Origin: Saururus chinensis
Lineage: Eukaryota > Streptophyta > Magnoliopsida > Piperales > Saururaceae
Assembly (NCBI GenBank): GCA_035235625.1
Contig: CP141140.1
Coordinates: 16,388,685 to 16,452,684 of the forward strand
Direction: 5' to 3'
Length of the DNA stretch: 64,000 nucleotides
In this document: positions 26,305 to 59,010 of the stretch, piece by piece
Layout: every line of letters starts with the position of its first letter
How positions within the stretch are numbered: the stretch's first letter is position 1
Translations under genes and position numbers: made by a program
The notes under the pieces: model-generated
What the model saw: the letters and a program-made list of their open reading frames with translations, nothing else
Told to the model about the DNA's origin: nothing
The model's database searches: none

Positions 26305-29300
26305 ATGGAGTGGGTCACGGTTCAGCATCTGGACCTCCGCCATGTGGATCGAGGCCTTAAGCCCCTGCAGCCGCACGCCGCGGCCTTTCACCCCACTCAG
26401 GCGATTATGGCTGCTGCCATTGGGAGCTACATTATTGGTACGTTCTCTTTCCTCATTCAGATGTTGAATGTCGATTAGTTTAGTTTGTTTCATTCAGTCA
26501 GCGGTAGACAAGCTAGGTAGAGATTCTCTGGTGCTTCTCGAAAATTAGTTAGACAACCTGCAGACCAACAAATTATTTAGCTGCTGTAAGTATTTCACAT
26601 AGATTTATACAAATTGAACTGGGCATCAATGGAAAGATTTTTGAGGAAACTGGTAAGAAGGCTGATGGGAAGTTGTCAACAAGATGGTTGTGCTGGTTGC
26701 TACGTAGCTCATTTAAGCTCTTTTTTCTATTGATCCTGAAAACGTACATGTAACAGGCCGAAGCAGGAGAAGAACTGGCCGTGACAGTAGGTCATATCTC
26801 TCATGACTGATCTGGCCTAAATACGTAGCATAGGACTTTTGCTTTCGAGTACCTTTCTTTTCACTTTCATTTTCTTAAATATGCATACTATAGGGTATTT
26901 GTTTCCCACGTTGTCTTGAATTTTTCTCATACTGTTTCTCATTTCTTCTATCTAAGAAGACTCTTCTTTCCCTTCTACTATCGTGAATATTGCTCTCATG
27001 ATCCCCTTGAATATTTTACTCTTAACCGTTATAGTATTTCCCTCTAACCATTTGGCCTACGAGTAAGTTCCTTTTCGGAACATTCTCGAGGGGCAGTTAC
27101 AGATTCCATGAAATTCCTACTATGTTGGCTGGTACAGCATTCAATCAAAATGTAGCTGGTTTTTATCTTCTTATAGCTAGTCAAAGAAAGAACCGAAGAA
27201 CAGTCGGAAGTTTATTTTTATTATTATTAAGAAATTTGCTATTTTTAACCAGGCGTCTTGTAGCATATTGGTGCATGATCCTGAATTTAAGTCACCTACA
27301 AAGCCATGGAAAGAGAAATACGTCTTTCATGCTATTCTTTAGGTGGAATTCGTTTATTTTGAATGTCATCAATAACTAACTTGATTCCGCATGGATATTA
27401 TTTGTTTAGAAAGATTTAGAGATGCCAAGTTGGTGGAAGCGTCTTTTAGACCAAACAGCTGTAGTCACTAATTACCAGTCCACATCTGGGAGGATTTACC
27501 TTCTTAGGAACATGTATGAAGTTAAGTTTTAAGCAAGTTGTTGATCGAGCTGTTACTGTACTAAGAAGGTGGCAGGGGCACATCACCTGATGATTTTTAA
27601 TTAGTCACTTTAGTGACATGAAACCTGAAGTTTTTATATTTTATCATTGTCTGAAGTTTTATTTCTTCCTTTGAATAGAATACATTGTGAAAAGTATCTT
27701 GTTTATGACACTCTGATTATTTATTAAAAGTGTTTTGGTGCCTGGAAACACCTGTCAAAAACAATTTATTGTCTGAGTGGTGATCTTCCAAAGGAATTTT
27801 ACCAGTCACTGGGGAAGTAGCTATAGGTGCCTACATAGGCAGATGAGACAATGAGCTACAAAATGTAAAATGATCTGGGGTATGATTTCAATCTGGAGTG
27901 CCATGGTTTTCTCAAATCTTTTACAGTTATTATCCGTATAGAAATTTCAATTAATTAATGGGCGGCTGACAATAATCTTCCCTCGTATGAAGGCTGTAAA
28001 TGGAGTCTACGCATTGGTAAAAATTGTCTATTAGATTGCTACGCACAAGGTTTCAATAGGAGCTAGGCACCAGTTAAATGTAGGAGTTTCAGTAGGGCCA
28101 TGGAAAAACCTGCCTACTTGTTAGAAGTGGTTTAAAATTTTCTCCCAAAAAGCGCCACAAAAGGATGATAGGCCATATGCATTAACGTATATTATATCTC
28201 AATTCTTCAATCAAAGTATTTGATGCTCAAGAATGCAAAGTATCAACATTTTTATGCCCTAAACATGTTTTAGGGACATTCAAGTTTAAATTTACTTTAG
28301 TAATAGAGATAATGGACATTAAATTCTAAATTGTGGATGTTCAACAAACTTTATAATGCAAGAGACATGCCAACTTCAATTTTTATTAATTATGGTGCTG
28401 CCATCAGCCCGTTATGACTTGTTCCTAGTGGCATCAAACTCATTGCATGAAGGAAACTTACATTACCAAATGGATAAAATACCATAATCTTGGCTTATGA
28501 AAAACAGGATTTTTTCAAGAAGTAACCGTGATTGCATTAACTATGTTAGGAACCACTTATTGTAAAAGCTTAAACTGTGTAGGAACTAACACCTACACAG
28601 TGTTAGGAACCATTTAACATTGTCATCTACATGCAAGCACACAGCTGGGCGTACACATACACAGAACACTGCGTCTGAACTTAAAACTTATGGCTATGAT
28701 ACCATGTTAAGAACCAGTTCTGCTAAAAGCTTAATCTTCAGGGAAGGACAAAATTTTGACATAAACAATGCTTATACTCCTGTTCATGTGTAGGCTCACT
28801 TACTCTCTGCGTGTGAACACAATCATTAAGGATACATTCTAAGAAATTTTGGTTGTGTAGGGGAACGGACCAAGAACCTCTTGCTCTCATACCAAGTCAA
28901 TTATTTTGCCTAATAGCTTAAGTTTTTAGTGAGGGGACTAACTATGTATACTAATCTCTATGCTCACAACAGAAAACACTGCTTTCCCCAGGATTGGAGC
29001 CCTCAAAACTTTTGGCTTCAATATAATGTTAGGATCTACATCTTGATTGACTAATGGTTGTGAAAATGAGTGCCCATCATCTTTTGATTTGTTAAATAAG
29101 TTAATGCTATTACTTGACTTAGAAGTATGTAGGTTTCAAGATTTAGATATTTTTAAGTCTTTCCAGTAACTGTATTTTGGAAATCACAAATTTAATTCTG
29201 CATTTTTGCGCTGTTGAATTTTCAGAACTGGAACATCCGTTTGTTTAAAACAGCACAAAAACGTCAAGCCTGTTTTATAGATTCGTTTATCCATAGTAGA

Positions 29301-32300
29301 ACTCTCCTTTTATTGGGTAGATGTAAAGAATGTCTTTTGAGTGGTTAAGTGAGAGATTTAAACACAGGTTTAAATGTGGGTGCTAAGCGTTCTTCCACTG
29401 TACTAAAAAGTTTAATGAATTATGGATGGGTTAACTCCACATAACCAAGATAGGATTCCATGTTGTATGCTTTTTGCAGATGATGTAGTTTGATGAGACT
29501 CAATTAGAGTTTGTAAATGCAAAGCTAGAAATGTGGAGGGAAACCTTGGAAACAAAAGCGCTTTAGAATAAGTATAATTAAGATGGAGTATATGGGATTC
29601 AACTTTAGGTAAGGTAGAACCATGATTGGACCCCTAGTTGAAATAGATGGGTAAGAAAAACAAAGATGTGAGAAATTCCACTATATGGACTCCATTATCC
29701 ATGAAGGGGGAGATCTAGATGGTGGTGAAGTGCTTAGGACAAATGCTGGGAGGGGGGGGGGGGGGCAAAGTGGAGAGTTGCATTAGGAGCATTGTGTGAT
29801 AGTTGATAGGTTTGTCCAAATAGGCTTGTAGGAAATTTTTTTAGGACAATAGTTAGATCACCAATACTCTATGGAGCAGAGCGTTGTGCCCCAAAGAAAT
29901 GTCATAAAGATAAATTAAATCTAGCAGAATTGAAGATGCTAAGGTGGATGTGTGGGATAAGTGGCAACTCGGAGAGGCCCGATTAGAAATGAATATATTT
30001 GCGTGAACTAACATAGCAACTTAGAGAGTGTAGGTTGCATTGGTATGGGCATATACAACCAATGGATGCGCTACTTCAGTAAAAAGGTTGGAGGGGATAT
30101 AATGTAAGTAGAAAGGCCAAAAGAGAAGGAGAGAGACCTGAGAAAAATTGGATGGAGATGATAATATATGATATAACATGCTATCTTTTTCAATAGAGGT
30201 GACACAAAACATGCTAGAGCTGAGGTATAAGATCCTTGCCGCAGACCTCAAATTGTTGGGAAAAGGTGCTTCTTGATGTTGTTATGATTATGGTTAAGTA
30301 GTAGATCTAAACATGGGTCTTAAATATGGCTGCTAAGCATTTTTCCACTATGCCAAAGATATAAATCAATTGTCTTTTGCCATTTTATGTGTTTTTTTAA
30401 CCTAGTCATTGCATCTGCAGATGTCAGAGACAATATATTTGTCTTTTGTTGTATGTTAATTCTGGCTCGTTTAAATTTTCTCACATCTGATTGAATTTAA
30501 TCTCTTGCTGTGCAGAATTTGATGCGCTTAATGGCAGCAAAATTTCTTCCATAAATATTGGAGCACCAGTTGTTCGTATGGCTTATAGCCCTACCAGTGG
30601 GCACTCTGTGATTGCTGTTCTTGAAGTTGGTCCCCATTCTGAGACTTATGATTTATAGTAGTTCTTATGTTTCTGGACAAATTTAGTGTCGGCGCTTGTT
30701 GTCTCATCACAGATTGTTGGTTTGCTTGATTTACGGGTAGAAAGACATTGTTTCATTGGATGATATTGTAGAAAAAATTGCTTGGAACTGCACGAGAAAT
30801 CAATCTGAACATGCATCTTGCACCAGATTATAGGTCATGTCTTGTATTGGGGAATTAGAATTTTCTAGGAGTAATAATTTTTGACTCTTGCAATAAATAC
30901 ACTTTGACAATCTCTATACAGGGCCAAATTTCCTTATACTATTTGAAAGTGGAAGATACTTTTGGAAATAATCAGGGAGAAATTTTATTGGCCTCTCACA
31001 AAAATGCTTTTTGTTTGTGTGGATAATTTGTATCTGTTTTCTGCCTCACAGTGCGAATATAGAAAAAATTAATTTGGGCGTAAAAAATATTGACTTATCA
31101 ATTTGTTGAAATTGGCATTTTGATTGTTCTTCTTTCCACTCATGGTAAAGAGGAGAGCTTTGCAGTTGAAATGTTGAAGATATATTTGTGACGAAATATA
31201 ATATCCTTGAAATACTTTTGGACTATTGTTTTATATATATAGGTGAACAAATTTCATATCCTTGATTGGGTACAAAAGGACTAATTTTGAGAGATTTTTA
31301 GTATGACTTTACTGAAAGTTTCTTTTGCTGCTACGTGGTTTGCTCTACAATAAAGATCAAAATTATTATGCAGAGAACTTTGCTGCATGTCTTTTTGCCT
31401 TTTTTATTACTTATAGATTCTTCTATTCTCATATCGCAAGTCAATGTTGATTTTTTGTTTTTAAATGAGTCTGTTTTTATTTGTATGCCTATCATGAAGT
31501 TGTAGCAGTTTCTCTTCTCTGTTGCGATGGTCATTGTAATCAGCTACTGTTTCTTTTTCCTTTTAAATTTTAGGATTGTACAATTCGCTCGTGTGATTTT
31601 GACACTGAGCAGACATCTGTGCTACATTCACCTGAAAAGAGGAGTGACCATATATCGTCAGATGCAGAAGTTCATCTTGCGCTGACTCCTTTGCAACCTG
31701 TTGTCTTTTTTGGTTTCCATCGTAGAATGAGTGTGACAGGTTCATTTTTTAGAAATTTTTTAATGATTTGTGCTGTTCCAATTGTGGCCACATCTGAATT
31801 TTGACTTGTTACATTGGCTGCATGCAGTTGTTGGGACAGTTGAAGGTGGAAGAGCACCTACAAAAATAAAAACCGACCTTAAGAAGCCCATAGTGAATCT
31901 TGCATGTCACCCACGTCTTCCTGTCCTGGTAACATAATACAACTTTGGTTGTCCTTTTTTTCCTATTCATTTGTGTCTTCCTATTTTTCTTTTCATGGAT
32001 CATGAGTTTCAGCATAGTACAATATGGGTTGTTAGTATCACATACAAATATGATAAGTCCTTGTTCCTGGTTTCAGTATGTTGCTTATGCTGATGGCTTG
32101 ATTCGAGCATACAACATTCAGAGTTATGCTGTTCTATATACACTGCAACGTAAGATCAGCTTAGCTATACAATGTTTAATATGTGATCACCTATGTCATA
32201 ATATCCTTTTGAACATTTTTATATATTGACAGCTGGGATTTTACCTGTACTCTCTCTTTCCCCCCTTTCCCCCCTTGAATATTATACTTGCAGTTGATAA

Positions 32301-35300
32301 TACAATTAAGCTCATTGGTGCTGGGGCTTTTGCCTTTCATCCAACCTTGGAGTGGTTTTTTGTTGGTGATAGAAGAGGTACACTTTTGGCCTGGGATGTA
32401 TCAACTGAGAGACCAAATATGATTGGAATGTAAGTTTCATTTTGAACTCTTTTGGTGTTTGCTTTCTTCTTTAATTGGGACTTCCGATGAGAAATTTTCT
32501 TACATTCAAACTGGATAGTTGAAATGTCTCTGCTAGTGACATGCTACATTTACACTAAAAGCTTTTTGTTACTAAATGAGAATGAAATGCATGAGGAGAA
32601 GGATTAAAGTGGAAACAGCTACGTGAATGACAATTTAGGAGTAGCCGTAATTGATGAAATTAAAAAAGTTTTAGGGGCTCTATTAATTGATAAAGTTGTC
32701 ATCAAATTCATTTATAAGAATATAGAAAAATGCTACGGAACTGGTTGCACCTGTATGTCTAAATAAATCTCAGGTAAGATAATTTATGATACTTTTGATG
32801 ATTAGTGATGGCCACTAATCTGCCTCTGGCAGCCAGCAGGTTAAGGCAGTTGCTTCATTATGCAGCATGAAGTTAGTAGTTGCTTTGTTTCATGGTATCT
32901 CTTATATGTTGTACCGCGTAGGTGGGAGTTGGTTTATCCACTGTTTGTGCGTCTGCTGTTATCAGATGTAGTTTTTGCGTTATATTTCTCTTACTACTGA
33001 GGTGGGAGTCAGTTTGTCTACTGTTTGTGTGTCTGCTGTTATCAGATGTAGTTTGTGCATTGTATTTTCCAAACAGAATAGAATTAACATTATGTTCTTC
33101 TGAATCCTTGCATTTGATGCTTGGTAATTGCATTTTTTATCAAACAATATTTTGTTATCATACTTGCCTTTTTCTGTTTGTAAATAACATTCATGATGTG
33201 GACAGTGAATGACAGCAGACTGTAAACAGAAATGGGTTATAGATTTAGGTACAGTGGTCTATAAATATCTTATAGTTCATTTGCAATTAAAGCACCTTTC
33301 TTGAGGCTATGTTTATATGCCATTTATGTCAATTAAAGTTCAAAGGAAAGTAAATGTATATTTGCTGTATGAATTCTGAATATAACTAAGTGCCGTGCAG
33401 TTTGTTTATTTAACAATTTTTGCACATACTGCAATTTCCTTTTCTTTTTTTGTTTTGTTAATATCTCATGTTGATTAAATATTTTCCTGTTGGTTAAATT
33501 TTTCATGATTTTACTTTTTGTCTCATTTTCAGCACACAGGTGGGATCCCAGCCAATTACATGTCTTTCTTGGATACCTTTGCTTCATGTTCTTGTCACTG
33601 TTTCAAAGGATGGGGTTCTTCAAGCCTGGAAAACGCGTGTGTCTACTAATTCAAATAGGCAGCCTATGCAAGCAAATTTTTTTGAGCCTGCTGGTTAGCT
33701 GACACTTATCTTTCTTTCAGTGATTTTACATGCATCTATATTTCCCCACTCCTCACATGTGCAGAGTGACAATTTCGAGTGAGATGACTGATACTCAACT
33801 TTACAACAGAAGCTTGCAATCTGGTGTCTCTGTTGCAGTAGTTTTGTGCCTGTATGACCTTTGAGTTGTCATTAATTTGTGGCTACTTGGCCAAGGGAAT
33901 GGAAGAGTCTTCAATAGTGCATCATTTTTACCTCACTTTTATGTGTGATATGATAGAATAACAAAAACTAGGGTTTTTGAGGAGGAGAATAATGTCTGTT
34001 ACTAGAGAATAACGTAAAAGACAATTTGTATGAGTTTAGCTATCAAGCCTCTTATAGAAGAGGAAGCCGCAAATAAGAGACAATTTGTATGTAATAAGAG
34101 ACAATAATACCCTTGCTTGAGTGAAGGATAAACCTAGAGGTGGCAAAGGGCTGGGTTGGGCCTGGCCTGGCCCCCGGTCCTTCGGAAGACCACATGCCGA
34201 TCCTCATCTCCAAAGGGAGGCCCGGCACGGCCCTAGGGCCTGATGTGCTGGGCCAGCTCTTAGGCCCGCCCAATTGTTTTTTTTTAAATATTTGCCTATG
34301 TTGCGTTATGGACCATGCCCATAAGGCTGCCAAGGCTGATCAACGGTTGTAAAGCCAATCAATCAGCATACAGGCCCGAGGGCCGGGCCTGCGGGTCTCC
34401 ACCAGGCCAGGTCCATTTAGACCCAGGGATTTAAACCCTGCGCCCAGCCCTTTGCCACCTCTAGATAAACCAATAGAAAAATAAGCTTAAACTGAATAGA
34501 TTAAACTACCCCTTATTAATACAAACACACTACTAAACACAAACAAATAATGCGAGCAATACTACTCTAACATGATATTCCCCTTGCAATCTTATTACTT
34601 GAACAACTAAACAATTAAATGAAGTTGGGAGTTCAAGTATGTAGATTTATTTGGATCCATTCCAGTTTGATTTGAAAATGTGGGCTATGGATAATTGAAT
34701 GATGAGAATCTGGGTTTTAGGTTAGGGTGTCAGGTTGGCTCAAATCTATAGGTTAACTTTTATTTTGGGCTTGAACCAATTTTAGGTTTTAGTTAGAGGA
34801 AAGGGACTTGAGGGATATATATAAGAAGAGAGTTGGCTGTAGGGTTTAACAGGTGGTGATCTAAAGCAGGAACTAAGAGCTGTTATTTGTGGTTGTTTTG
34901 GTAAAAGAAGATAATGTGTTTTAAAGAGAGGATGAACAAAGGAAGAACACAGAAAAGAGATGAAAAGACTGGAAGAAGAAGGTTCTCAGAAAGAGAAGAG
35001 GAAGAAAATTGAAGCAGCAGAGAGGAGAGAGGGAAGGAGTGTTAAAGGGAGAGTGATCATAAGAAATGGCGAGATGGGAGTTGAAGAAGGGGAAAGAGAT
35101 GAAGTGGAAATGCAGACAAAAGGAGGAAGAAATAACATTAAGAAGATGAAGAATTAAGATGATGATGGGAAAAGAGAGAGAGTGGATAAAGCATAAATAA
35201 GAGTGAAGTGCGTAGGGATGCCATGCAGGTCGAGTATATGGGAAAACCCTACCCGATTCGACCCTAATAGGTCGGGTTTGGGTTTCTAAATTGAACTGAA

Positions 35301-38300
35301 AGAACTCTTCGGGTTGGGTGGGCAATCCAACCTGAAAAATTTAAAATTTTATTTTTTTCTTTGAATTTTGATATTAGCTATTAATTTTTTTTTTGATGGG
35401 TAAGAGATAAAATCAAATAATTATTTAAAATTTTGTTTTATTTCATGATTATGTTTTTTTAATTCTAAATAGGTTGGGTTCAGGTTTGACATATTCAGGT
35501 CGGGTCATGTTTGGATTACCATTTCTTAAATGGTAACATGTTTAGGTTTGGCAAAACCCGACCTGAACCCGACGACATCACTAAAAATGTGGGACAAAAT
35601 AGTGTAGAAACTCTCTTTATGCATCAACATTGTAAGAGTATATTTTCTCATATCTTTGTGTTTGGTTGTCTTTAGTAGCGTAGTTCTATGTATAAGGGGT
35701 AGATTAATCTTTCATTGTTATTCTTATTATATAAGTGGTCACCCCTTCATTTAAGTGATGGCAATAGTGTCTTTTTCTTTAATTGGCAACCCTGAGACTA
35801 CTTAGAGGCTGTCTGATCCATTTTTCTTCATTAATTCAATTCAAGGGAAGCTCTTTCTTCTCTCCTAAAAACCTAGTCTTCAATGATTCTATCAAACATT
35901 AAACTCCTGTGCCCAATGGGGCCATGCTGATTAATTACTCTCAATTAGTCTAAATTCTTAATCTAGCTATGATTTCTAATGTAGCTCTCCACTGAAAGTC
36001 ACACTTCCCTGCAAACTATGATTTCATTGCTCCAATAAACCATACATAAGCCACTCTCCAACCATTCAAAATTACACGAAACAGAAATATCTCACTTATA
36101 AGCTATGAATTGCCCTTAGATCCAAAATTATGGAAATACCCTTGTGCTAAGATTGTTTACTACAAAGGCCCCCATGTAAATCGTACATTTTTCATTCCCC
36201 TGTTATGGTGGTGATGAGTAATATTAATGGGTGCTTTCATTACTGAACTGCAAGAAATATCTCTCTATCTCTCTCTATGTGTGTGTGTGTGTTTTCTAAT
36301 TACACAGCTAGAGAAGATGCATGTTTTTTTATTAAAAAAGTACCTGTGACTTCTTTAAATTTGCAGAAGCATAATGTCTTTAGTATTCTCTCTATTTATC
36401 CTATTTTTTGTAGAAATATGGTGGCTTTGTTATTTTTCTAATTTATGCTAGTTAAACTTTCAAGGTGCTAATTGAGAGCTTGAGAGTTGTATTGAACAAG
36501 AAGATGAATAAATGTTATAGCAAGTTTTGGTTTTCCTCTTTCCTTCTGGAAAAATTTTCTATAAGGAGCTCTGTTCACTAATGTTACTTCCCATTTCGTG
36601 GTTTATCTGTTGATTTGACAGCAATTGAATCAATAGATATCACCAGCATATTATCTCTGCAGGATGGAGAAGCTGTGTATCCCTTACCAAAAATAAGAAG
36701 TTTTATAGCTCACTCAAAACTAAATTTGGCTGCGTTGATATTTGCAGTTAAGTCAGTAGTATTTTTGTTATGAAGCTTGGAATTGCTTTAGTGATGTATA
36801 TATTTGTTATAAAATTTAAATAAAAATCTGGTTTGTTTGACGCAGAATCTGCTAGGAGACAGATCAAATAACAGAGCAGCATACACAAGAGAAGGAAGAA
36901 AACAGCTATTTACTGTTCTACAAAATGCTAGAGGATCCACAGGTACCTTTGCTGTATATCTTGTCATTAAGAGGAAACACATTATTTTTTCAAGAGTGCT
37001 TATGCAGCAAACATTGATGGCTCTGCATTTCATTTCCATTCTAAAAATGAAATGTTACACTTGAACTGGAAGTTCCTGCTTGGTATTGTCACGAGTTGCT
37101 TTTACTTTAATGTTCACGACTTGGGATTGCCTATCATCTTTTGGCTCATACTCTATGGTACTCTTTTTTTGAAATAAGTAATTGTTCTCTGTTGTTTTTG
37201 GGTAAATGTTCCCACATCTTTTTCAAGCAAGGTTTGTGCAGGATTTCAGCTAAAAAATGCCTGACTCTTTTAAAATGATTTGATTGTTTTATCTTAATTT
37301 TTACTTTCCTTGCAGCTGCAATTTTGAAGGAAAAACTCTCAGCTTTAGGTTCATCCGGAATTTTAGCTGATCATCAATTTCAAACACAACTGCAAGAACA
37401 TCACTCAAAGGGGTGAGGTGCAATGGCCATTATTTCTTCATTGTTTTACCATAATACAAAAACAAGCCAATTTCTTTCTTTCTTTCTTTCTGTCTGTCTT
37501 TTTTTTAAAAAAAAATGAAGCAGAGGATTGTGCACCATGTAATATTGTGTTCAATCTTTTTAGCTAATGAGGAGCATTTATAAACAACCGCTAACTGTTT
37601 GCTGTCTTGTGCTTATACATCTATTTTGTATGATCTTGTAAAATAATGTCTTTCTGTTATCTGTTTGAGCATTACTGTCAAGCTGTTCATAGCAGTAGTT
37701 AAACATCTTGTACCCTTTAGCGGTATTATAATTTCCTCTTTCTTTAGTGACAAGCTGGTTTCTTTTCTGCTATCAGTCCAAGTCAGCTCACGATGTCAGA
37801 TATTGCTCGGAAGGCTTTTCTTAACAGTGTATGTCTTTTGATTCTTGCTGATGAAATACTGAATGAGAATACTCGATTTCCATCATTCTTCTTTACTGAT
37901 TATTCATGAAGCTGATGAAGATTATAAGTATTTGCTTGTTTGCTCTCTTTACTAATTTCTGTGAATATGCTTCAAAAAACTCAAATCTTAAATTTCTCAT
38001 TTTGTTAGATTGAATAAATGAGTCCTAGAATTTCAATGAATCAATGATGGAAATCAGTAAAGGATGTGGGGTAAATAATTTAACTCTTGGTTTGGCAAAT
38101 GATACAGTTGGATTTACACAATAGAGTCAATGTTGCCAAACCCTAATAGTTGAAATATTTTGACGATAATGATGAAACCTGTAAGATTCTTAAAAAACAA
38201 CCATTTTTAAAGGATTATAACTTCATAAGATTTCTAGTGTCAACTTTACTTCAATTTTTGATGTGCAATGTGGTCTTCCTGGCTCCATCATATATGGGAT

Positions 38301-41300
38301 TACTTGATGATTTGTCTGAGTAAGATCTGCAATGGCCAATCTGTAGAGGAGATATTTAAATACACAAGCTCACACAGATAAATCATGATCATGATCAACA
38401 CCTTATCCATCCAGTTGTATGGATTTGGCAAAGCAGATAAAAAGAAAATTTTTCTGTAATTTTTTAGTGAACTGTCAGTTTGTGATGAATTAAAACCATA
38501 TAACTTCTCTCAAAAGCCATATGTCAAGCTTCTCGGGAAGACTATATGCACATTATTCTTCAATTATGTGTTAAAGGATTAAATGCAGTAGCCGAGCCTG
38601 GATTTTCCTTTTTTTTTCTTTTGGCAAGTGTATGCACAGTCCAAGCAGCAACCTGTGATTATTGTCACAATTGATTAGTGTGTTCTATTAAGAAACTGTC
38701 TTTCTAAAAATTCTGGTCAAATTTGAAACTTGATGGACTTGTACTTTTCTTTTTTGTCAATTTTATTTGAAACATTATTGCTTGAGTTTTGCTAAATGTG
38801 GATCTACCAATTTGAAAATTAAATGTTTTACTATGAAAAGTGTGTTTACATTAGTTTGCAACATTGTCAAATATAAGGGCCAATATGTAAAGACGGAATA
38901 TAGATTTATGGATTGCAGCAATAGCTCTTCCACTACATGGATGTTTTTCTTCACCAATATTTTTTAAGATGGAGCCAATTACATATAAGCTAGCATTTTG
39001 ACCTTTATCTTTTCCTTTTTCACCTACTATCTATTACTTAGCGCTTTATTGCAAATGTGGATATTATGCTAATTTTTATTTATGTGGTACAATAGCATTT
39101 CATGGAAGGACATGCTAAAAGTGGTCCAATTTCCAGAATCCCTCTGATCACTATATCAGATGTTAGCCATCATCTAAGGGATATTCCAGTTTGCCAGGTT
39201 GTTCTTTAACATTGCTTGTCGTTAAACTTTGAGTTATAACTTTTATGAAGTAATTTTTAATCCTATTTGTGCCAGGCATTTCACTTGGAGCTGAATTTTT
39301 TTAATAAAGAGAACCGGGTCCTTCATTATCCAGTTAGAGCGTTTTATATTGATGGTGTCAACCTCATGGCTTACAATTTGTGCTCTGGTGTTGATAACAT
39401 ATACAAGAAGCTATATTCAGCGGTAATGGTGAATGTGTTTAGCTCTTTCTTTTTTCCACAAGTAAATTGTTGTGACGAAATTGCTTTCAAATGCATGATA
39501 TTTATAGCAGCAATTGCACATATCTTGTGCCCAATTTATATTTATCCAAATCCGTTTCAGATTCCTGGAAATGTTGAATGCCAGCCTAAGAGGATGATGT
39601 ACAGTTCAAAGCAAAATCTATTTCTTGTAGTTTTTGGTTTTGGACCAACTTACAATGAAGTTGTTCTTTATCGGGAACAAACAGATGCACAGATTGTCAG
39701 CAATAAAGGAAACACCATCAAAGGTTTCCTCCTATATGTTGTTCATAACATTTAGATAGACCTACCTAATACGAGTCATTACACCTCTCAGTGTGTTTGT
39801 TGTGCAGGTCGAGATGCAGCATTCATAGGCCCTAATGAAAATCAATATGCCATTCTTGATGATGATAAAACAAACATTACTCTGCATATTTTGCTGACTA
39901 AGGCCCCTCAAGAAGCTGTTGAAAACAACGGAGCTTTGGATCCTAATTCATTTTCTGAGACAAAAGTAGCTTCAGATGGCAGCGTTTTGGCATTTACCTT
40001 TGAGACTGAAGTTGATCGCATATTTTCTTCTCCTCTAGGTAGTTCTCGAGAAATAGGCAAATTATTACTTTGAAGCAATGAAGTAAAGGAAAATACTAAC
40101 TCATATGGGCTGTTATCCACGGGATAGCCCATGGGCTGAAAATCCTACAAATCATTCCGATTGATCCACTGTTGAGAGAAACCTGTAGCTTTGGCTCATG
40201 GATAGATCAATGTAGGATTAGCATTTTTCTGAAATAAATATTTGATTTTCTTTTTCTTTTGAAGTAAATATATGTAAATATACTTGGTTAAATAAGAATA
40301 TAAACACTTTATTTGGTGGTTTTGGCTTTCTATTCTTGTAGAATCAACAATACTCTATGCTTGCCATGGCAATCATATTGGACAGGCTAAGTTGATTCAA
40401 GGATATCGACTTTCAAGCAGTGATGGTCAATATTTATCAACAAAAACTGAGGGAAAGAAATCCATCAAACTGAAAGTGAATGAAATAGTTCTTCAGGTTG
40501 TAATTGTGTTCTATTCTTGAACAAATATTTTAGTAGCACATAAAGTTCAGATTCTTATTCTTCTTACGGTCTCTAATATGATCAAACCTTTTCACAGGTC
40601 CAGTGGCAAGAAACTTTGAGAGGCCATGTAGCAGGAATATTGACTAGCCACCGGGTGCTAATCATTTCTGCAGATTTGGATATTTTGTCTAGCAGCTCCA
40701 CCAAAATTGACAAAGGGCTGCCTTCCATATCCTTAAATATACGTGCAAGTCTACTATTGCTTTGCCAAAGTTAAAATGGTTATGGGTGTTTGTCTTCTTT
40801 GCATATGTGGTGTGGTCCTTGATTAGTTTTTTCAAGTGTATTCTTAACATTTCAATACTATAGATCCCTTTTGTGGGTAGGGCCTGCCCTTTTATTTTCA
40901 AGTTCAACTGCAGTGAGTATGCTTGGATGGGACAGCAAAGTTCGAACCATTCTTTCGATTAGCATGCCAAGTGCTGGTAAGCGTGTAATAGTTGTCTTGA
41001 AAAGTTCTTTAACTTTTGAGGATCTCAGTCACCTATGATAATTTTGTTTCGAGAAAGTGACAAATTATTGTCTTTATTTCGTGAACATTCATAACTTAAT
41101 TCTTCTGCATGGGTGTCGTATGGAAGTATCTCCTCTTTTCTCCTGCATCTGAAACTTCTCGTCTGTAGTCTTCTTCCGCTCTTCATTCATTGAATCTATT
41201 AATTTTTCCTCCTAAAACAATCAAAATCCACTGATTTGTGACCCAGAAACAGCCGCCATCAACTGATATCAACTTCCACATCCCTGTCTTGATCATCACC

Positions 41301-44300
41301 GACCAGAAATCCTTACCAGAAAAAGTATGATTCTGTTATTTCCCACCTTTTCCTCTTTAGACCTTTATTAGCTATACTCCTTATGTCCTAATCCCAAATT
41401 GAACCCTTAATCCTGTCTAACAGAACCAGCACAAATTTTAATTAAATTCTCGTTTTTTAACTATAACCAATCCCTTAAAAACTTCCGTCTAGATTAGAAT
41501 TATCGTGGTCCCTTGTAGTGAAAAATCAATTTTATCCCCCCCGACCTGTCTGTTCAACGATATGAGCATGCACATCATGAGCCTACATCACTTGATTCAG
41601 TCTACGTTTTGCCTGAAAATCAATTTATTTATTCCATTGGTTATCAAAGCACAACATTAACATTATTGTGCAAAAAAAGTACAGCATTAACTCAAAATAT
41701 TTTTTGTGTGAAACACTTTATAATGTGCTATTCATACTTTAATAATGTTTGTTTTTTGCCAGATCTCATGTGCATATGTTTTATGAAATTTACAGTGCAA
41801 TTGGAAAATCTTAGTCATGTTTAATTTTATGTGGATTCTTACATATTAACTCAGAAGTTATACTGGAAGTAGTCCTATTATTTAATACGATTAGTTTATC
41901 TATATATAAACTTTCTACCTCTCTAGTTAACATGGTTTTGATTTTATTTCATGCAGTTCTGGTCGGCATTTTAAATGATAGGATACTGCTTGCCAATCCA
42001 ACTGATATAAACCCTAGGCAAAAGAAAGGAGTTGAGATTAGAAGCTGTCTTGTAGGGCTTCTTGAGCCACTTCTCATTGGGTTTGCTACAATGCAACAAC
42101 ATTTTGAGCAGAAAATTGATCTCTCAGAGACTCTTTATCAGATAACATCAAGGTGTGTTTACTTTACAACAGATAGTGATATTATCACATGCTTATACAA
42201 TGAGTTGCATAGCAACATAAGGGGGTATTTTTCACGTAGTTAGGGAGATAGAAAAGTGCCAAATATTAATTTTCATGCACACATATTGGACTGATATTGA
42301 CACACAGTTATATTTTCCTTCTTCCCCATTTTATCTTGTTCCCAACCTTTAATTCTACAAATGTTGATAAAGTTGTCCATGGCAGGCAATAGTTTCAGGA
42401 TGTACTAGACAATTGAATATTGCTTTGCGAAGAAAATGGCTTAGCCTAGAATTTTAATCTTCGTTTACGATCCCGTTAATTAGCTCATCAGTTGCTGTAG
42501 GAATGTCATTTTAGAACTTTTTTGTCTTTGAAGGTTTGACAGTTTGCGCATCACTCCAAGGTCACTTGACATTCTTGCAAATGGTTCTCCCGTTTGTGGG
42601 GACCTAGCTGTATCATTATCCCAAGCTGGGCCACAATTTACACAGGTGACAATTATAGTTCTCATTGGCCTTTTTTTTTCGTTTTTATTTTTGGTTCATA
42701 ATTTTTTCCCCAAATCATTATAGGTAATGCGATGCATATATGCAATCAAAGCCCTCCGATTCTCAACAGCTTTGTCAGTATTGAAGGATGAGTTTCTTCG
42801 CTCTAGAGACTATCCCCAGTGCCCTCCTACATCTCTATTGTTTCATCGTTTCCGCCAGTTGGGATATGCTTGTATAAAGTATGTACTTATTTTTTGAAAT
42901 AACTTATTATATATTTCTATAGTATATAACATCAAACCTTAAGCAGAAATTGAAAGTTTATATTATATGAGTAATCGACCAGGTCAAGTTGTACTGCATA
43001 TGCTTATACTCGGCAGTTCAAAATTTTCTTGATACAATTTTTGCGTAATACTTCAGCATATTGCTATAGTGACTTGATTGGTGATACAAATGTTACTCTG
43101 TAGAATAGAAACATAAAGGAACGGAGTCTGAAAAAATTCAAAGAACTACCACATGGAAAATATTTGAGCTTCAGTTACTTTTGTAACAAAAAATGAAAAT
43201 TTTTTAATATCGACATTGGTCTTTTTACTTGTTATTAGTTACAAAGTTCTAAAGAAAAACTAATGAAGCACTCTTATCTTGTTGTTTTTGTCTGACTCCT
43301 TCCACTAATCTGAGTATATAGTATGATAACATTATGACTTCAGATTTTGATTTAGTACAAACCTTTTACCTGCTTCCGTGCTAGTTATGTTTACCGGAGA
43401 TTGTAGAGATTTTCCTTTATTCTTTGTTTTGTCCCCTTGTACTTAAACTGTATAATAATTTTTTTGTTTTTTCTTTTTACAATTAAGATGATATTTTTTC
43501 TGGGTTTGAAATAAATTTACTCTATATGTATAAATTCTCATGATTTTAATTCGCACATCAGGTTTCTCTCGAGTCCTTTTAGATTATTAAAATTGCTGTT
43601 TCTATATCTTGGTGTAATTCTGAAATGAAAGTCTTATGGCTGTGGTGGTTCAGTTTCGGAGTCATCAGCTTGCATGTAGTAAATATCAATTGGTTCATTT
43701 TTGTCTTCCTGATTATATGACATCAATGTCTGTTAATAAAGCTCTATGCCATATACGCTATCTTTGTTGTATAATCATATCTTTAGTTCTTTACTATTGT
43801 ATGCGTCCAATATTGGAGGCTGTGACATGAATTCCATTATGCCATTTGAACCAGTATTCTAAAAGTTAAATTAGAATCCATGGTGAGATATGTTGGAAAA
43901 CTTTTTTTTTTCTATGCTGGATGTTGTTTCTGAAAAACAACCTTTTGATGATGGATACAATAGCTATGATCTGATGTTTGAGAAGGAAATTTTGCCTGGT
44001 CATCTTTCTGCAACAGGCTGTGATAGAAGTGATTGATGACCAGTGTATGTAAAGAAGAATATATAATTTGATAAAAATGTTTGGTTGTATTGATTTTGAT
44101 AGCTTGTACCTTTATGATAAAAATGTTTGGTTGTATCAATTTTAATAGCTTATACCTTTTATGATCAAAATGTTTGGTTGTATTGATTTTGATAGCTTAT
44201 ACCTTTATCCTTTCCTTGAGATTCTATCTTGATTAGTTGACTAAAGAGATCTCACATGATGTTCACCGAGGTGGAATTCATTGTTCTGCCTAATTTGCTG

Positions 44301-47300
44301 TAGGTCCTCTTATGGTTGAGGACCCCTAGGTTCTGGTGTTTTCTTTTTCATCCTCTCATTCAGAACTAATTCTTTTTGACTTTCAGGTATGGCCAATTTG
44401 ACAGTGCAAAAGAAACATTTGAAGTTATTGCAGATTTTGAAAGCATGCTTGATTTATTCATCTGCCACCTTAACCCTAGTGCCATGCGGCGTCTAGCTCA
44501 GAAACTAGAAGATGCTGCTATTGATTCTGAAATGAGGAGATACTGTGAAAGGATTCTCAGGGTTCGGTCTACTGGGTGGACACAAGGCATTTTTGCCAAC
44601 TTCGCCGCCGAAAGTATGGTCCCTAAAGGACCTGAATGGGGTGGTGGGAACTGGGATATAAAAACACCTATTGACTTGAAGAATATACCTAAATGGGAAT
44701 TAGCAGGAGAGGTTATGCCATATATGAAGACTAGTGAGGGAAGTATACCATCTCTTGTCACAGACCACATTGGTGTATATCTTGGCGCAATCAAAGGGAG
44801 GGGGAACATAATTGAAGTAAGAGAAGGCAGTTTAGTGAAGGCAATTACCAGTGAAAACAAGTCAAGTGGGTTAGCAACGTCTTTGCCAAAGGTTAATGGA
44901 GTAGCTGGTGGTGATTCACAAATTGACTTGAGTATGAGCATGGATACCTTATCTAAACCAAGTGTAGGAAAATCTTCCGTAGATGAACAGGCAAAGGCTG
45001 AAGAAGAATTCAAGAAATCTCTTTATGGTGAAGTTGATGCTAGCAGCAGTGAAGAAGAGGAAGGAACAGTAAAAACCAAAAAGATCCGCATAAGAATTCG
45101 TGACAAACCCGTCTCATCTGCTACAGTTGATGTCAATAAGATTAAAGAGGCTACCAAACAATTTAAACTGGGGGATGGGTTGGGTCCTCCAATGCGAACC
45201 AAATCTTTTTCTGGCGAAAGTCAAGATCTCTCTGTTTTAGCCCTACCAGCCCCTGCTACAACTGTGACTACCACAGCCACACCTGTTCCTGCTGCTGATT
45301 TGTTTGGAACTGATTCCTCAACTGTTCCACCCAACACACAATCTCCTCCAATGGTTATTGGTGCAGGAGTCACTGCAGGGCCCATCCCAGAAGACTTTTT
45401 CCAGAACACTATATCATCTCTTCAGGTTGCAGCTGCTTTGCCTCCTCCTGGAACTCTTTTGAGCAGATCAGGTCCAACTTCCCAAGGGAGCAATGGTAAC
45501 CGGATGTCTTCCAACAAGACAAATGCTGTAAAAGAAATAGGTTTCTCCGATGGTGGGGTCCCTCCTCAAGTTTTAAAGCAGCCGACTGTATCTCTTGAAT
45601 CAATTGGACTGCCAGATGGTGGGGTTCCTCCACAGACCCCTGGTCTGGCTGCTCAGACCCTACAACAGGCCGTTCAAGTTTCAGCCACTTCAAAACCCAT
45701 GGACCTCGCTGTGCTCGAAACTCTGGTACCCAGTGCTGGGGCTGATGCCACCAAACCGACAGCATCCCTTCCAGCGGCTGTGCGCCCAGGCCAAGTAAAT
45801 TTAGTTGTGACTATAGTGGTTCTTAAGCTTGCACATTTCATTATGCTGATATATAAAACATAAATGGCTGGATGAGGGTTGCAACTTGAGAACCAAGTTG
45901 GGCTGCTGATATTATTATTTGTTTCTTATGTCATAGTGGAAAATGGAATTTATCTCGGCTTCTGCACCTTTTTCAGTGTGAAATTCCTAGTGTTTATTTT
46001 TATTACTTTTTCAGGTTCCTCGTGGAGCTGCTGCATCCGTATGCTTCAAAACTGCCCTTGCGCATCTTGAGCAGAACCAACTCACTGATGCATTATCCTG
46101 TTTGGATGAATCCTTCCTAGCATTGGCTAAGGATCAATCTCGAGGAGCTGATGTCAGAGCTCAAGCCACTATATGTGCCCAGTACAAAATTGCTGTTGCT
46201 CTGCTTCAGGTACATATCGTTTTAAACTTCTCAATTTTAGTGCATTTTAGGGGTTTTAATCTACTTATTGCAGGCAAGTGAAAAAGATGCATCTGATGGT
46301 ATGCCAGTGGGTGCTTGCTTATCAGTCTTGTTTTATTAATCAATTCTGCTTATATCTTTTTCTTTGTATTGCCTCCATACCTATTTTATGGTGTTGTTAC
46401 AGGGATTATGGTTTGCCACTTAAATCTTGTATTTCAATAGTCCTCCTAGGCTGCAAGGGCAGCAGCATATGTTTTCTGCAGTTGAGTCATCCCGGATGTT
46501 GGATTTTAATCTGACGGGCAGCAGCCCCTTCTCCCCATCTTGTCTCCATCCTGCTCTGCCTGATCTGCTGTGGCCTTCTCGCAGTCCATTGGGGCAGTTG
46601 TACCCAAGTTTCCAACCAGCACTGTGCCAGCCTCCGCTGCTCTGCGCCCTGGCATCCATCATTGGGCAAGCTGTGCATAAAATAGGGAAAGGAGTTTCTA
46701 CCCCACTCCACCTCGACTCCTTCGTGTGTCACCTGCAGAAAGAGTTGTGGGGCTATGCACAGAATACTTTTTCCATATTTTGTAGTATTTTCTTACTAGT
46801 TTCTTCATAGTTTTACCTTGATTTTCTACCTGCTTCTAGGATCTCTGCAAGCCAATGATCATCTCTCCTACAAGTTCTGTTGGTTGTTCCCTTTGCACGA
46901 GGCTAAACAATCTCAATCGACTGTCTCAACTCATCACTGATTAGAAACTAACCCCTCCTAATGTGTCTGTTTTTCTTAGTTTTTATTTCTCATCCATCTG
47001 TGTTCTTGTCTATGCTCTTATTTTCTTATGCATTTCTGAGTGGCACATCTTTATTACCTGTACAAGATTGCTGGCCTCATTGCTATCCTACAACATTTCT
47101 TATGTAGTCTTACTTCTGCTCTGCATATTCCTCTCAATATGTGGAATTCAGTAAGCACCAAGATCTTTAATACTACAACAAAATCAAGTAACTCTATCCT
47201 ATCCTGTTTTTCTCCCCTTATCAATTGTTGAAATTTTTGTCACGAGTTCGCTCAGCTAGCTTCACTAATGGGCTTTTCTATTGCTTTTGAACCTAGTTGT

Positions 47301-48340
47301 TGCTAATTATATCCGTTTCTGTCCTCTTAAATGTCTTGAGGCACAAATTGTCCTGTTGATTCTTTTTATTGGCAAACAATGGGAATTTAAACTACATGTG
47401 GTGTATTTAAAATCAATTGCCTTGATCACTTGGGTGTATATGAGTGGTCTGGTCTCCCCTTTATTCACATGGTACATCCCCATTTGTACTACTTTCAATG
47501 AGGTCACTTACCAGCGATTCGGCCATAGAGCTGTCAGATAAAAAGATCTGAGAGCCTTAGGCCTTCTTCTCAAACGCCCCCCACTTTACTACCACAGGAA
47601 AGGCTTCCTACACAGAAAGGGGGGAGGTGTTGCTTGTCATCGGTGGCTGGGTCGCTGTGCCTTGCTGCCACCTTTTGCTCGGTGTGGTGTTGAGCACGGG
47701 CAAAGTTCCGAGTAGTTTTTCCTTTTCCAATATAATATTTTTTTTGTAAATGAATTAAAATAGTTATTGTTTCTACTTTCACTCATTGTTGAGTGACATA
47801 CCCTCATTGATAATTGAGTGTAAATAATAATAATTCCTAATATAAACTATCGATTTTTCTGTATTACAGGAGATTGGTCGCCTTCAGAGAGTACAAGGGC
47901 CTAGTGCAGTCAGTGCAAAGGATGAAATGGCAAGATTGGCACGTCATCTGGGTTCCTTGCCTCTTCAAGCAAAGCACCGCATGAGCTGTATACGAACTGC
48001 TATAAAACGCAACATGGAAGTCCAAAACTATGCCTATACCAAGCAGATGCTTGATCTTCTTCTCTCTAAAGCTCCTCCAAATAAACAAGATGAATTAAGA
48101 AGCTTGAGTGACATGTGTGTACAAAGAGGCCTGACTAACAAATCTATTGACCCGATGGAAGATCCCTCCCAGTTCTGTGCTGCTACCTTGAGCCGCTTAT
48201 CGACTATTGGGCATGACGTCTGTGACCTCTGTGGGGCAAAATTCTCTGCAGTTACTACACCTGGATGCAGTATCTGTGGGATGGGAAGTATTAAAAGATC
48301 TGATGCGCTTGCTGGTCCTGTTGCATCGCCATTCGGTTGA
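26305..48340 (+). CDS. TWD40-1: TPLATE complex subunit TWD40-1, 24 exons
   Basis: Strong resemblance to Arabidopsis TWD40-1 (AT3G50590), a WD40 subunit of the TPLATE adaptor complex, which acts at the plasma membrane in clathrin-mediated endocytosis. The joined frame is 1610 residues, about the family length. Coding exons: 26305-26437, 30516-30625, 31574-31739, 31828-31928, 32077-32149, 32294-32429, 33533-33693, 36622-36746, 36846-36942, 37316-37412, 37777-37828, 39096-39197, 39276-39422, 39561-39723, 39808-40038, 40342-40496, 40598-40726, 40859-40976, 41957-42152, 42534-42645, 42724-42878, 44387-45794, 46015-46209, 47870-48340. All phases agree and no stop interrupts. The protein starts MEWVTVQHLDLRHV. 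It has WD40-type repeats in about the first 330 residues, a helical middle with YGQFDSAKETFEVIADFESM, a Ser/Pro-rich linker in exon 22, and two CxxC pairs (1572-1575, 1587-1590) before the end SPFG. Intron 17 is AT-AC. Intron 1 (4.1 kb) holds a LINE relic and intron 7 two hAT-like MITEs. Confidence 0.95.
29343..29400 (+). repeat. left copy of a direct repeat flanking the LINE relic
   Basis: Reads TGGTTAAGTGAGAGATTTAA and continues to TTCTTCCACTGTAC. It matches 30292-30350 with scattered differences and in the same direction. Confidence 0.6.
29430..30290 (+). mobile_element. degenerate RTE-type LINE (3' part of reverse transcriptase)
   Basis: Broken frames carry reverse-transcriptase signatures: CMLFADDVV with the catalytic DD (near 29470-29490), then KLEMWRETLE in another frame, and further on LYGAERCAPKKCHKDKLNLA followed by ELKMLRWMCGISG. 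That order (FADD, KLE.WR.TLE, LYG.E.W, MLRWM.G) is typical of plant RTE-like LINEs. Frameshifts and stops show it is dead. A run of 14 G lies inside (29752-29765). Confidence 0.8.
30292..30350 (+). repeat. right copy of the direct repeat flanking the LINE relic
   Basis: Reads TGGTTAAGTAGTAGATCTAA and continues to TTTTTCCACTATGCC. Imperfect copy of 29343-29400. It is longer than an ordinary LINE target duplication, so it may be an older repeat or part of the element. Confidence 0.6.
32921..33068 (+). repeat. two tandem copies of an 80-bp unit in intron 6
   Basis: The copies start GGTGGGAGTTGG (32921) and GGTGGGAGTCAG (33001). Both continue with 'ctactgtttgtg.gtctgctgttatcagatgtagttt'-like sequence. 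The second copy is incomplete. Confidence 0.85.
34135..34463. mobile_element. hAT MITE in TWD40-1 intron 7
   Basis: A 329-bp element with near-perfect terminal inverted repeats: left TAGAGGTGGCAAAGGGCTGG, right CCAGCCCTTTGCCACCTCTA. It is flanked by a perfect 8-bp target duplication, GATAAACC (34127-34134 and 34464-34471). The interior is GC-rich with GGGCC/GGCCC motifs, in contrast to the AT-rich intron. No coding capacity. Intact ends and an exact duplication suggest a fairly recent insertion. Confidence 0.95.
34925..35180. repeat. GA-rich tract in intron 7
   Basis: Purine-rich low-complexity sequence (GAAGAAGG, AGAGAGGAGAGAGGG and similar). Open frames on either strand here are artefacts of composition. 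Confidence 0.75.
35213..35583. mobile_element. hAT-like MITE, 'tagggatgycat' family, in intron 7
   Basis: The left end TAGGGATGCCATGCAGGTCG is opposed by a right end CCCGACGACATCACTA. The interior carries GGTCGGGTTTGGGTTT and its reverse. It is related to the element at 24798-25099. No exact target duplication seen. Confidence 0.6.
40727..40858 (+). other. U12-type AT-AC intron (TWD40-1 intron 17)
   Basis: This 132-bp intron begins ATATCCTTAA, the textbook U12 donor. It has TTCTTAAC (40841-40848) as branch-site match and ends in AC, about 10-12 bases after the branch adenosine. Splicing here joins ...GLPS to YRSLLWVGPALLF, as the family requires, in phase 0 after codon 726. No GT-AG choice nearby restores this conserved segment. 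Confidence 0.9.
44070..44208 (+). repeat. three tandem copies of a 46-47 bp unit in intron 21
   Basis: Copies begin at 44070, 44116 and 44163 with GATAAAAATGTTTGG or GATCAAAATGTTTGG, followed by TTGTAT and 'agcttataccttt'. A few bases differ between copies. Confidence 0.9.
46440..46760. other. GC-richer patch in intron 23
   Basis: This part of the 1.66-kb intron is distinctly richer in GC and keeps open frames on both strands, including one on the plus strand with LTGSSPFSPSCLHPALPDLL. I see no domain and no terminal repeats. It may be an inserted fragment of unknown origin. It is not part of the TWD40-1 coding sequence, whose exons 23 and 24 join directly. Confidence 0.4.
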
Positions 48341-56629: not shown

Positions 56630-59010
56630 TAAAAAAAACGAAAAAACTACCTTTTGTATCAGTGCAACAACCATTTGAGGGCTTCCAGGTATACCATTCT
56701 CCAGATATGCCTGACATAAATAATTGATACATTAAATCCTCATAACTTGATGCAAGCAATTCTCACATCATATAACATTTTGAAACAAAGAAGGCCCCAT
56801 ATTCAGAAAGAGGAATGGAGGTGGACAGGTAAAGAGCACATAGCATGGATTGTGGAATTGAACATTCTATAAGATATTGCACTGTTTTACACGTGAATCC
56901 CAATTTGAAGGCAAAGGGGATGGGGTAGATATAAAAGTTTCCAACGTCATTTTAATCTGGTTCATATTCAAGAACGTACATTCATCATGCAAGAGTTGTA
57001 TACGTTGATCCAGAATGCAAGCTTTTGTTGATGGGTAAGTCCCCGTAAATCCACGGAGGCAAGCTTACCTAGGAGGCACCTGATTTTAAACACGAAAACA
57101 AGAATTCACTTGTTCAAACCTTAATAAGCATCCACTATAAAAGAAGACCACCAATACGATATAAAATGACTCACTTTAATCTTTGAATTAGAAACGAAGA
57201 ACTTGTGATCCGATCCGGAATCATGGAGCTTGCTTCAATCGCATGCAGATGCTTATATGGACCAATATCTCTTTCTCCGCATTCGAAAGATATCCCATAT
57301 GGGTCCCGAAATTCTGTTGCTTCTGAACCCTCACAAGAAGTAAACCTTGAAGAAGAAAAAGAAGAGAGCGTTTCTGACTTCACTATAGTGGCTTTTGGTG
57401 CACTCATTCTTGAAAAAATACTTATTAGGCACTTTAATACATCTTCTGCTATTTTATTTGGACTCTCTTGTTTCGATACAAATATGCTTATACCACTAGC
57501 AGGGCTATCTTCAGCTCCTTCTTGAGCCAGAGCTCTGTTTTCTAGCTGGCATTCAGGAAACCAATACCAAATTTAGTTGAACGTTCCCATCATTCAAAAT
57601 TGAGTAAATGATCCATTACCTGTATAGGCTCAGAGGTCTTCTCTGTGGCGTTGGATTCCACATGATGTTTTTTTGCTGAGGCACTATTTCTCGTTGGTTT
57701 CTGTAGAGATGTTTGCCTGAACTTTATTGTTGAATTAGCATTTGATTGGTTTTCCTTTCCTTCAATGAAAGCAGAGGGCGAATTATTTTTCTTCAAATTC
57801 TTTTTCCCATTTCCAGCTGGAGATGATGAATGCACAATTCGTTCAATCGGAAGGTTTGCGGGGTCGTCAATAAGTGAATGCAGAGGTCGTGATACTTCTG
57901 CTGTGTCCAGGTCCGGAACTTGAGAAGAAGATTTAGATTGTTGGAGCTTGAAACTGTTAGTCGAGTGTTCAAAGGACTCGCTCGTGCTCTCGATGCTTCT
58001 TTTAGAAGATGAAACGTACAAGGCCTCCTGATAAAGCCCTTGCCGGAAGTTCACGACCTGTTCTTCCAGACGGACGACTTCCTCTTCCAAAACAGCTACT
58101 TCTGCAAGCAGCTCCAACGTCTACAAAAAACCGCAAGGCAGAGAGAATTAGCCATGAGAATCGACTAATCTCACTTAAAAAACACTTTGCAACAGTGAAT
58201 TCATTGATCAACGGTTGGCAATTCCCTTCGCCATGAATTGTAAAAATCATATTTATAACTACTGAATTTCGCATTTTTGGCGTCTGTAGAAATCAGGTGA
58301 ATGGAAACAGAAGCCAAGTGAAGTGAAATTTGGTGAATGTGAACGCACGTGAGGGGGTAGATAAGGAGGAAGACGAGGCAGAGCTCCCAAAGGTCTTGTG
58401 AAAGCCCTCTCCAGTGCCCTGTGTACATTCTCCTCGTGTCTAAGCTTCTTCTTTAGCTTGTCGACCTGAAAAATTACACTACAACATCAACATTCTAACA
58501 GAGAGAAAGACTTCATTTCTTATTTAACTCGATAGAGATGCCTACATCTTGCTGTAACGCCTTTTTCCTTTCTCTGCATGAGGGTCGCGGATTAATGGAC
58601 CTCTCGGAATTTGATAATCGATTCAACAGCAATTCCTGCTTCTCCTTCACCTTCAGGAATTTAAAAAATAGAGACGAATGAAAAGGAAGTTCTTATCTCA
58701 AACTTTAGTTATGCATCTGAATAAAAAAACATACATTTTTACGTTGAGAAGGAGATTTTGCAACCTGAAATGGAGAAAAAACAGATTTTAAGCACCAATT
58801 CTCCAATATAACAAACAAACCACTTCAGAATTTTCCACCACGACAGAAAAGAATTAATTGTTTTTCCTGAATTCTGATAAGATTCATAAAATAGTTTCAG
58901 AATATCATGAAGTTCTATTCTTTAAGGTTAAAAGCAAAGCACCCTACTTTATGATCATGCTTCGCTGGAGCCTTCATGGTCTGCACCGTCGTCCTCACTC
59001 TTGTATTCAT
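55676..59010 (-). CDS. MIP1-type leucine-zipper / DUF547 protein, 11 exons
   Basis: A plant protein with an N-terminal coiled coil ('ternary complex factor MIP1' type, named after a MADS-box-interacting protein) and a C-terminal DUF547 domain. The molecular role is unknown; partner binding through the coiled coil is inferred. Coding exons in gene order: 59010-58948, 58764-58735, 58650-58546, 58465-58349, 58120-57620, 57545-57175, 57079-56980, 56710-56651, 56539-56459, 56380-56264, 55975-55676. All join in phase to 614 residues. The start [15 protein letters not shown] is chosen because an in-frame stop lies just upstream and this N-terminus is typical of the family. The coiled coil spans about 32-130, with [20 protein letters not shown] and [23 protein letters not shown]547 (about 400-530) shows [31 protein letters not shown] and [19 protein letters not shown]. 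The C-terminus has [20 protein letters not shown]. The gene faces TWD40-1 tail to tail. Confidence 0.93.
56597..56626. repeat. AT microsatellite inside a MIP1/DUF547 intron
   Basis: About 30 bases of (AT)n occupy a quarter of the 111-base intron 56540-56650. Confidence 0.85.

Follow-up and report, generated by a model that had tools for sequence, protein, structure and literature searches.

A very probable U12-type AT-AC intron in a TWD40-1-like gene of Saururus chinensis

In the stretch of Saururus chinensis DNA analysed here (the window, 64,000 nucleotides long and numbered from its first letter), a TWD40-1-like gene is interrupted by an interval that begins with AT and ends with AC. This raises the question of whether the interval is an intron of the U12 type, removed by the minor spliceosome, or whether the gene is spliced in this region at a conventional GT-AG pair, and what either arrangement would mean for the output of the gene. 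The features on which the answer depends are listed below; the U12-type assignments among them are putative.

26305..48340, plus strand: TWD40-1-like gene from its start codon to its stop codon, with 24 exons encoding 1610 aa (manual model)
40598..40726, plus strand: exon 17, 43 codons, ending in ...GLPS
40727..40858, plus strand: intron 17, AT-AC, very probably U12-type, phase 0, 132 nt, 67% A+T
40727..40734, plus strand: putative U12-type 5' splice site ATATCCTT, donor core matching at 7/7 positions
40772..40774, plus strand: TAA that would be in frame if intron 17 were retained, giving a product of 741 of 1610 aa
40840..40848, plus strand: putative U12-type branch site ATTCTTAAC, matching TTCCTTAAC at 7/9 positions
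40857..40858, plus strand: AC 3' splice site, read from the letters and the gene model
40859..40976, plus strand: exon 18, starting with YRSLLWVG

The gene and its surroundings

To build the gene model, a provisional version of an Arabidopsis TWD40-1-like protein served as the guide, and the final exon boundaries were set by hand from the alignment ends and the splice dinucleotides. The reading frame of the model is intact throughout and ends in a single terminal stop codon; 22 of its 23 introns are of the GT-AG kind, intron 17 being the one with AT-AC ends. Identity to the guide, which is provisional and which also shaped the model, amounts to 71.2% over 1631 alignment columns. Of the gene context given in the original prediction, a TWD40-1-like identity is supported. 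By its sequence, the gene resembles TWD40-1 of Arabidopsis, a part of the endocytosis machinery. TWD40-1 (At3g50590) and TWD40-2 (At5g24710; PMC6853982) are both counted among the additional TPLATE complex subunits (PMC8144573).

Independent evidence for the family was weak. Domain searches with the protein returned 20 Pfam matches, all of them below the curated cut-offs and most of them to beta-propeller families, including matches at about residues 152–285 (best E-value 1.3e-7) and a match to COPI_C, the C-terminal domain of COPI alpha, at residues 1430–1595 (21.7 bits vs a cut-off of 25). PDB matches of the whole protein were likewise weak, at best WDR33 (E 0.0026) and alpha-COP (E 0.012), and with a query spanning the greater part of exon 22 one PDB match was obtained, at chance level (E 1.4). 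When the protein encoded by exons 17 and 18 was compared to the plant's own genome (516.46 Mb in 11 contigs), no paralogue was found; both of the two matches corresponded to the exons of the TWD40-1-like gene itself. Since the query matches only this one place, the gene is apparently single-copy at that sensitivity. Searches with the 370 residues encoded from exon 17 on yielded 27 pattern-matched stretches in bacterial and archaeal genomes and three pattern matches in viral contigs, none of which was confirmed, as expected for a plant gene.

Elsewhere in the window, the minus strand contains an intact 381-aa frame with a DUF1645 domain (10898-12043, 168 bits) and, at 57590-58117, a frame with a sub-cut-off match to the MIP1 leucine zipper (27.9 bits vs 32.2), which may be one exon of a larger gene. 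Short broken frames at 29655-29983, within intron 1 of the TWD40-1-like gene, had no Pfam match; we take them to resemble the remains of a LINE-type reverse transcriptase. An Rfam scan of the 64-kb window at gathering cut-offs gave no matches, and a tRNA scan gave none.

Splice signals of intron 17 and alternative joins

The donor-core and branch consensus strings used for scoring were the textbook ones for U12 introns. Intron 17 runs from ATATCCTTAA at 40727 to TGTATTCTTAACATTTCAATAC at 40858 (in a longer read of its ends, ATATCCTTAAATATACG ... GTGTATTCTTAACATTTCAATAC), in exact agreement with the coordinates and letters of the original prediction. Compared with the U12 5' splice site RTATCCTT, its donor ATATCCTT matches the core at 7/7 positions, while no more than 5/7 positions match in any of its 22 GT-AG neighbours in the gene. 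The branch consensus is matched at 7/9 positions in intron 17 and at 6/9 or fewer in the other 22. Within the branch region, TTCTTAAC occupies 40841-40848, and its second A, the presumed branch A, is 11 nt away from the final base of the intron, which is consistent with the predicted distance of about 10–12 bases and falls within the optimum of 11–13 nt described for U12 introns (PMC3584512). The site ATTCTTAAC differs from the consensus, published as TTCCTTRAY (PMC5932401), at two positions; the duplex predicted with the core of the U12 RNA encoded in the same genome has a free energy of -4.0 kcal/mol, vs -8.3 kcal/mol for the consensus. A feature of the U12 class is the lack of a distinct polypyrimidine tract; at 64%, the share of pyrimidines ahead of the 3' end of intron 17 falls among the values of the 22 GT-AG introns of the gene (52-82%) and does not distinguish it from them. 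The first AG after the AC ends at 40863; a splice from ATATCCTT to this AG would span 137 nt, would be out of frame, and would belong to the AT-AG kind, which is disfavoured (PMC3584512). Joining 40726 to 40859, in contrast, keeps the frame in phase 0 and gives ...STKIDKGLPS-YRSLLWVGPALLFSS....

With a complete donor core, a 7/9 branch site and suitable spacing, the assignment to the minor-spliceosome class made in the original prediction stands, and 40727-40858 is very probably a U12-type AT-AC intron. As established for this class, U11 and subsequently U6atac would pair with ATATCCTT, U12 would pair around ATTCTTAAC at the branch site, and the 3' end would be the AC that follows the branch A at a distance of 11 nt, so that exon 17 would be joined to exon 18 in phase 0. 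The splice is presumably used in vivo, and the AT-AC form is likely to be the usual (constitutive) one; its splicing is presumably slower than that of the neighbouring GT-AG introns.

Among 127,984 positions on the two strands of the window, 16 had a donor core with 7/7 matches, the site of intron 17 counted; a branch match of at least 7/9 in range was found at 144 of 6,240 AC ends. From window frequencies, the chance of finding donor, branch and AC together at one fixed pair is approximately 1.4e-7; allowing for 13 offsets and 23 introns raises it to about 4e-5. Genome-wide, the motif pair ATATCCTT/TTCTTAAC was not enriched (7 matches vs 15 for the reversed control), and a looser U12-like pair, probably due to chance, occurs on the minus strand at 28694-28835 inside intron 1. 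The evidence thus lies in the position of the signals at the exon junction and not in the motif alone.

To assess alternative joins, 727 pairs of donor and acceptor sites, belonging to five dinucleotide classes, were enumerated from the start of exon 17 to the end of exon 18. An open frame was kept by 125 of them (23 AT-AC, 17 GT-AG, 44 GC-AG, 34 AT-AG and 7 GT-AC), so the claim that only this splice restores the segment in frame does not hold with respect to the frame. In the stricter sense of exact restoration it may be right: of the 14 joins listed, the proposed one alone yields GLPS-YRSLLWVG with no residue inserted or replaced. The proposed join also had the highest alignment score (314), followed by two AT-AC joins with extra residues (300). 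Conservation of GLPS-YRSLLWVG was judged against the provisional Arabidopsis sequence; the conservation argument for the junction leans on this guide, whereas the U12 signals do not. An automatic spliced alignment freely picked the AT-AC join in the segment 40598-40975; this alignment was only partly usable, with spurious joins, some of them AT-AC, in several segments with badly placed ends.

Two other readings of the junction have to be considered. If the region were spliced as a U2-type GT-AG intron, the protein would differ here from those of related species, for example by 16-18 extra residues or by loss of YRSLLWV. The 17 GT-AG pairs that keep an open frame would permit such a splice, and the best summed site scores among GT-AG pairs, 9.4 for 40770-40880 and 8.4 for 40749-40880, fall between the lowest and highest scores of the gene's own 22 GT-AG introns (-5.2 to 21.4). 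However, both of these stronger pairs delete YRSLLWV, and the best-aligning GT-AG join, 40743-40826, reaches a score of only 288, compared to 314 for the AT-AC join, adds 16 residues, and scores weakly at its splice sites (sum -0.3). A GT-AG splice would moreover leave unexplained why the exact junction carries a complete U12 donor and, at a suitable distance, a U12 branch site, and we consider it very improbable. As the original prediction had anticipated, a gene model limited to GT-AG pairs would misplace this junction, the 16 added residues of the 40743-40826 join being an example. Even more remote is the idea that the AT-AC intron is real, yet spliced out by the major (U2) machinery. The class is not defined by AT-AC ends alone, and intron 21 of SCN4A, which has such ends, is described as requiring a major-type spliceosome (PMC2831892); the 7/7 donor core and the well-spaced U12 branch site of intron 17 nevertheless argue against it, as does the rarity of AT-AC ends among U2-type introns, reported as 0.01-0.05% in Arabidopsis, rice and maize and as zero in soybean (PMC7367187). 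Removal of intron 17 as a U12-type AT-AC intron is the reading adopted below.

Minor-spliceosome RNAs and further AT-AC candidates in the genome

The RNAs U12 and U6atac of the minor spliceosome are encoded in this genome, with matching pairing sequences. The U12 snRNA gene scored 91.9 bits, over the Rfam cut-off, and carries GTAAGGAA. For U6atac, nine matches exceeded the Rfam cut-off, the best two with 94 bits; pseudogenes may be among them. The sequence AAGGA, complementary to the donor UCCUU, was recognized by eye in four of the five U6atac loci viewed (L005 to L008), and was absent from L009.

Of the six further genomic loci with the motif pair, L014 contains an AT-AC intron with ATATCCTT and TTCTTAAC (starting at 1501 of the locus, G000:C3:7943755-7943877) in an HSBP1 gene. 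After joining of its flanks, Pfam HSBP1 was matched across the junction with 50.9 bits (cut-off 28.6), the match comprising residues 1-31 of the 42-residue joined peptide, and PDB likewise returned HSBP1 (E 4.8e-5). This is convincing as a second AT-AC U12-type intron in the genome. It shares its AT-AC ends and the ATATCCTT / TTCTTAAC pair with intron 17 of the TWD40-1-like gene, but is in phase 1 instead of phase 0, and a Pfam match extends across its junction. L016 (from 1501, G000:C4:20301041-20301170) appears coding on both sides and may represent a further AT-AC intron; it had no Pfam or PDB match, and we presume it to be CWF19L1-like. L015, L017, L018 and L019 were not convincing as AT-AC introns, since their flanks did not look clearly coding by eye. 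L015 and L017 are alike around the motif match, and may therefore be copies of a repeat.

Relation to known plant U12 introns and possible effects of retention

The original prediction had stressed the rarity of the AT-AC class. AT-AC introns are indeed a minority of plant U12 introns, but they are not exceptional, with shares of 26% in Arabidopsis, 23% in soybean, 22% in rice and 13% in maize (PMC7367187). Counts for Arabidopsis depend on the source: 269 U12 introns, 26% of them AT-AC, are given for one database (PMC7367187), 216 in another count (PMC2831892), and 2069 with 4.8% AT-AC in a transcriptome-based count (quoted in PMC5932401). Phase 0, in which intron 17 lies, is reported to be less common than expected in the U12 class, although in soybean, rice and maize the deficit is not significant (PMC7367187). 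With the plant U12 AT-AC introns catalogued in U12DB, ERISdb and IAOD, intron 17 has in common the ATATCCTT donor, a TTCCTTRAY-like branch site, and a short distance from branch to AC; its phase 0 and its two branch mismatches do not amount to a difference in kind. A close parallel is intron 4 of CBP20 in land plants, which is also a U12-type AT-AC intron in a broadly used gene, and which in Arabidopsis is of similar length (134 nt vs 132 nt). For the CBP20 intron, presence in ten plant species and poor splicing from a minigene have been documented (PMC5932401).

Among the papers searched, none mentions both U12 and TWD40-1; the Arabidopsis counterpart may already be contained in U12 catalogues or supplements. 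Publications retrieved with At3g50590 and "intron" had no title or opening abstract about minor splicing, and a search combining U12 intron, endocytosis, Arabidopsis and intron retention found none. Intron 17 is a newly described, ordinary case of a well-known class.

Retention of intron 17 would lead to translation of 15 intron codons before the in-frame TAA, so that an unspliced message would give no full-length protein. The intron might accordingly act as a brake, its slow removal setting the amount of TWD40-1 and limiting assembly of the TPLATE complex. This idea draws on the stop at 40772, on a branch site weaker than the consensus, and on the Arabidopsis CBP20 AT-AC intron, only 4.77% of which was spliced from a minigene in tobacco protoplasts, whereas for two U2 introns in the same study the figures were 79.66% (42.61% with correct site use) and 94.4% (PMC5932401). 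However, minigene figures from another gene do not transfer to TWD40-1, and we regard a brake of this kind as unlikely. In Arabidopsis mutants of the minor spliceosome, splicing of U12 introns is impaired; in u11/u12-65k this was reported for every U12 intron analysed, whereas several showed no change in u11/u12-31k and u11-48k (PMC4892727). Taken together, the poor splicing of the CBP20 intron, the stop encountered upon retention, and the mutant effects make a brake on TWD40-1 possible, and control of TWD40-1 output by the splicing of intron 17, as had been suggested, is a plausible hypothesis. That minor-spliceosome activity tunes endocytosis in plants, with retention of intron 17 as a regulated valve for TWD40-1 and thereby for TPLATE assembly, is a bolder proposal and a distinctly doubtful one.

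For the gene itself, the AT-AC junction corrects a model in which a pipeline restricted to GT-AG introns would misplace the boundary between exons 17 and 18. For the biology of the plant, it names a plausible link between minor-spliceosome mutants and endocytosis.
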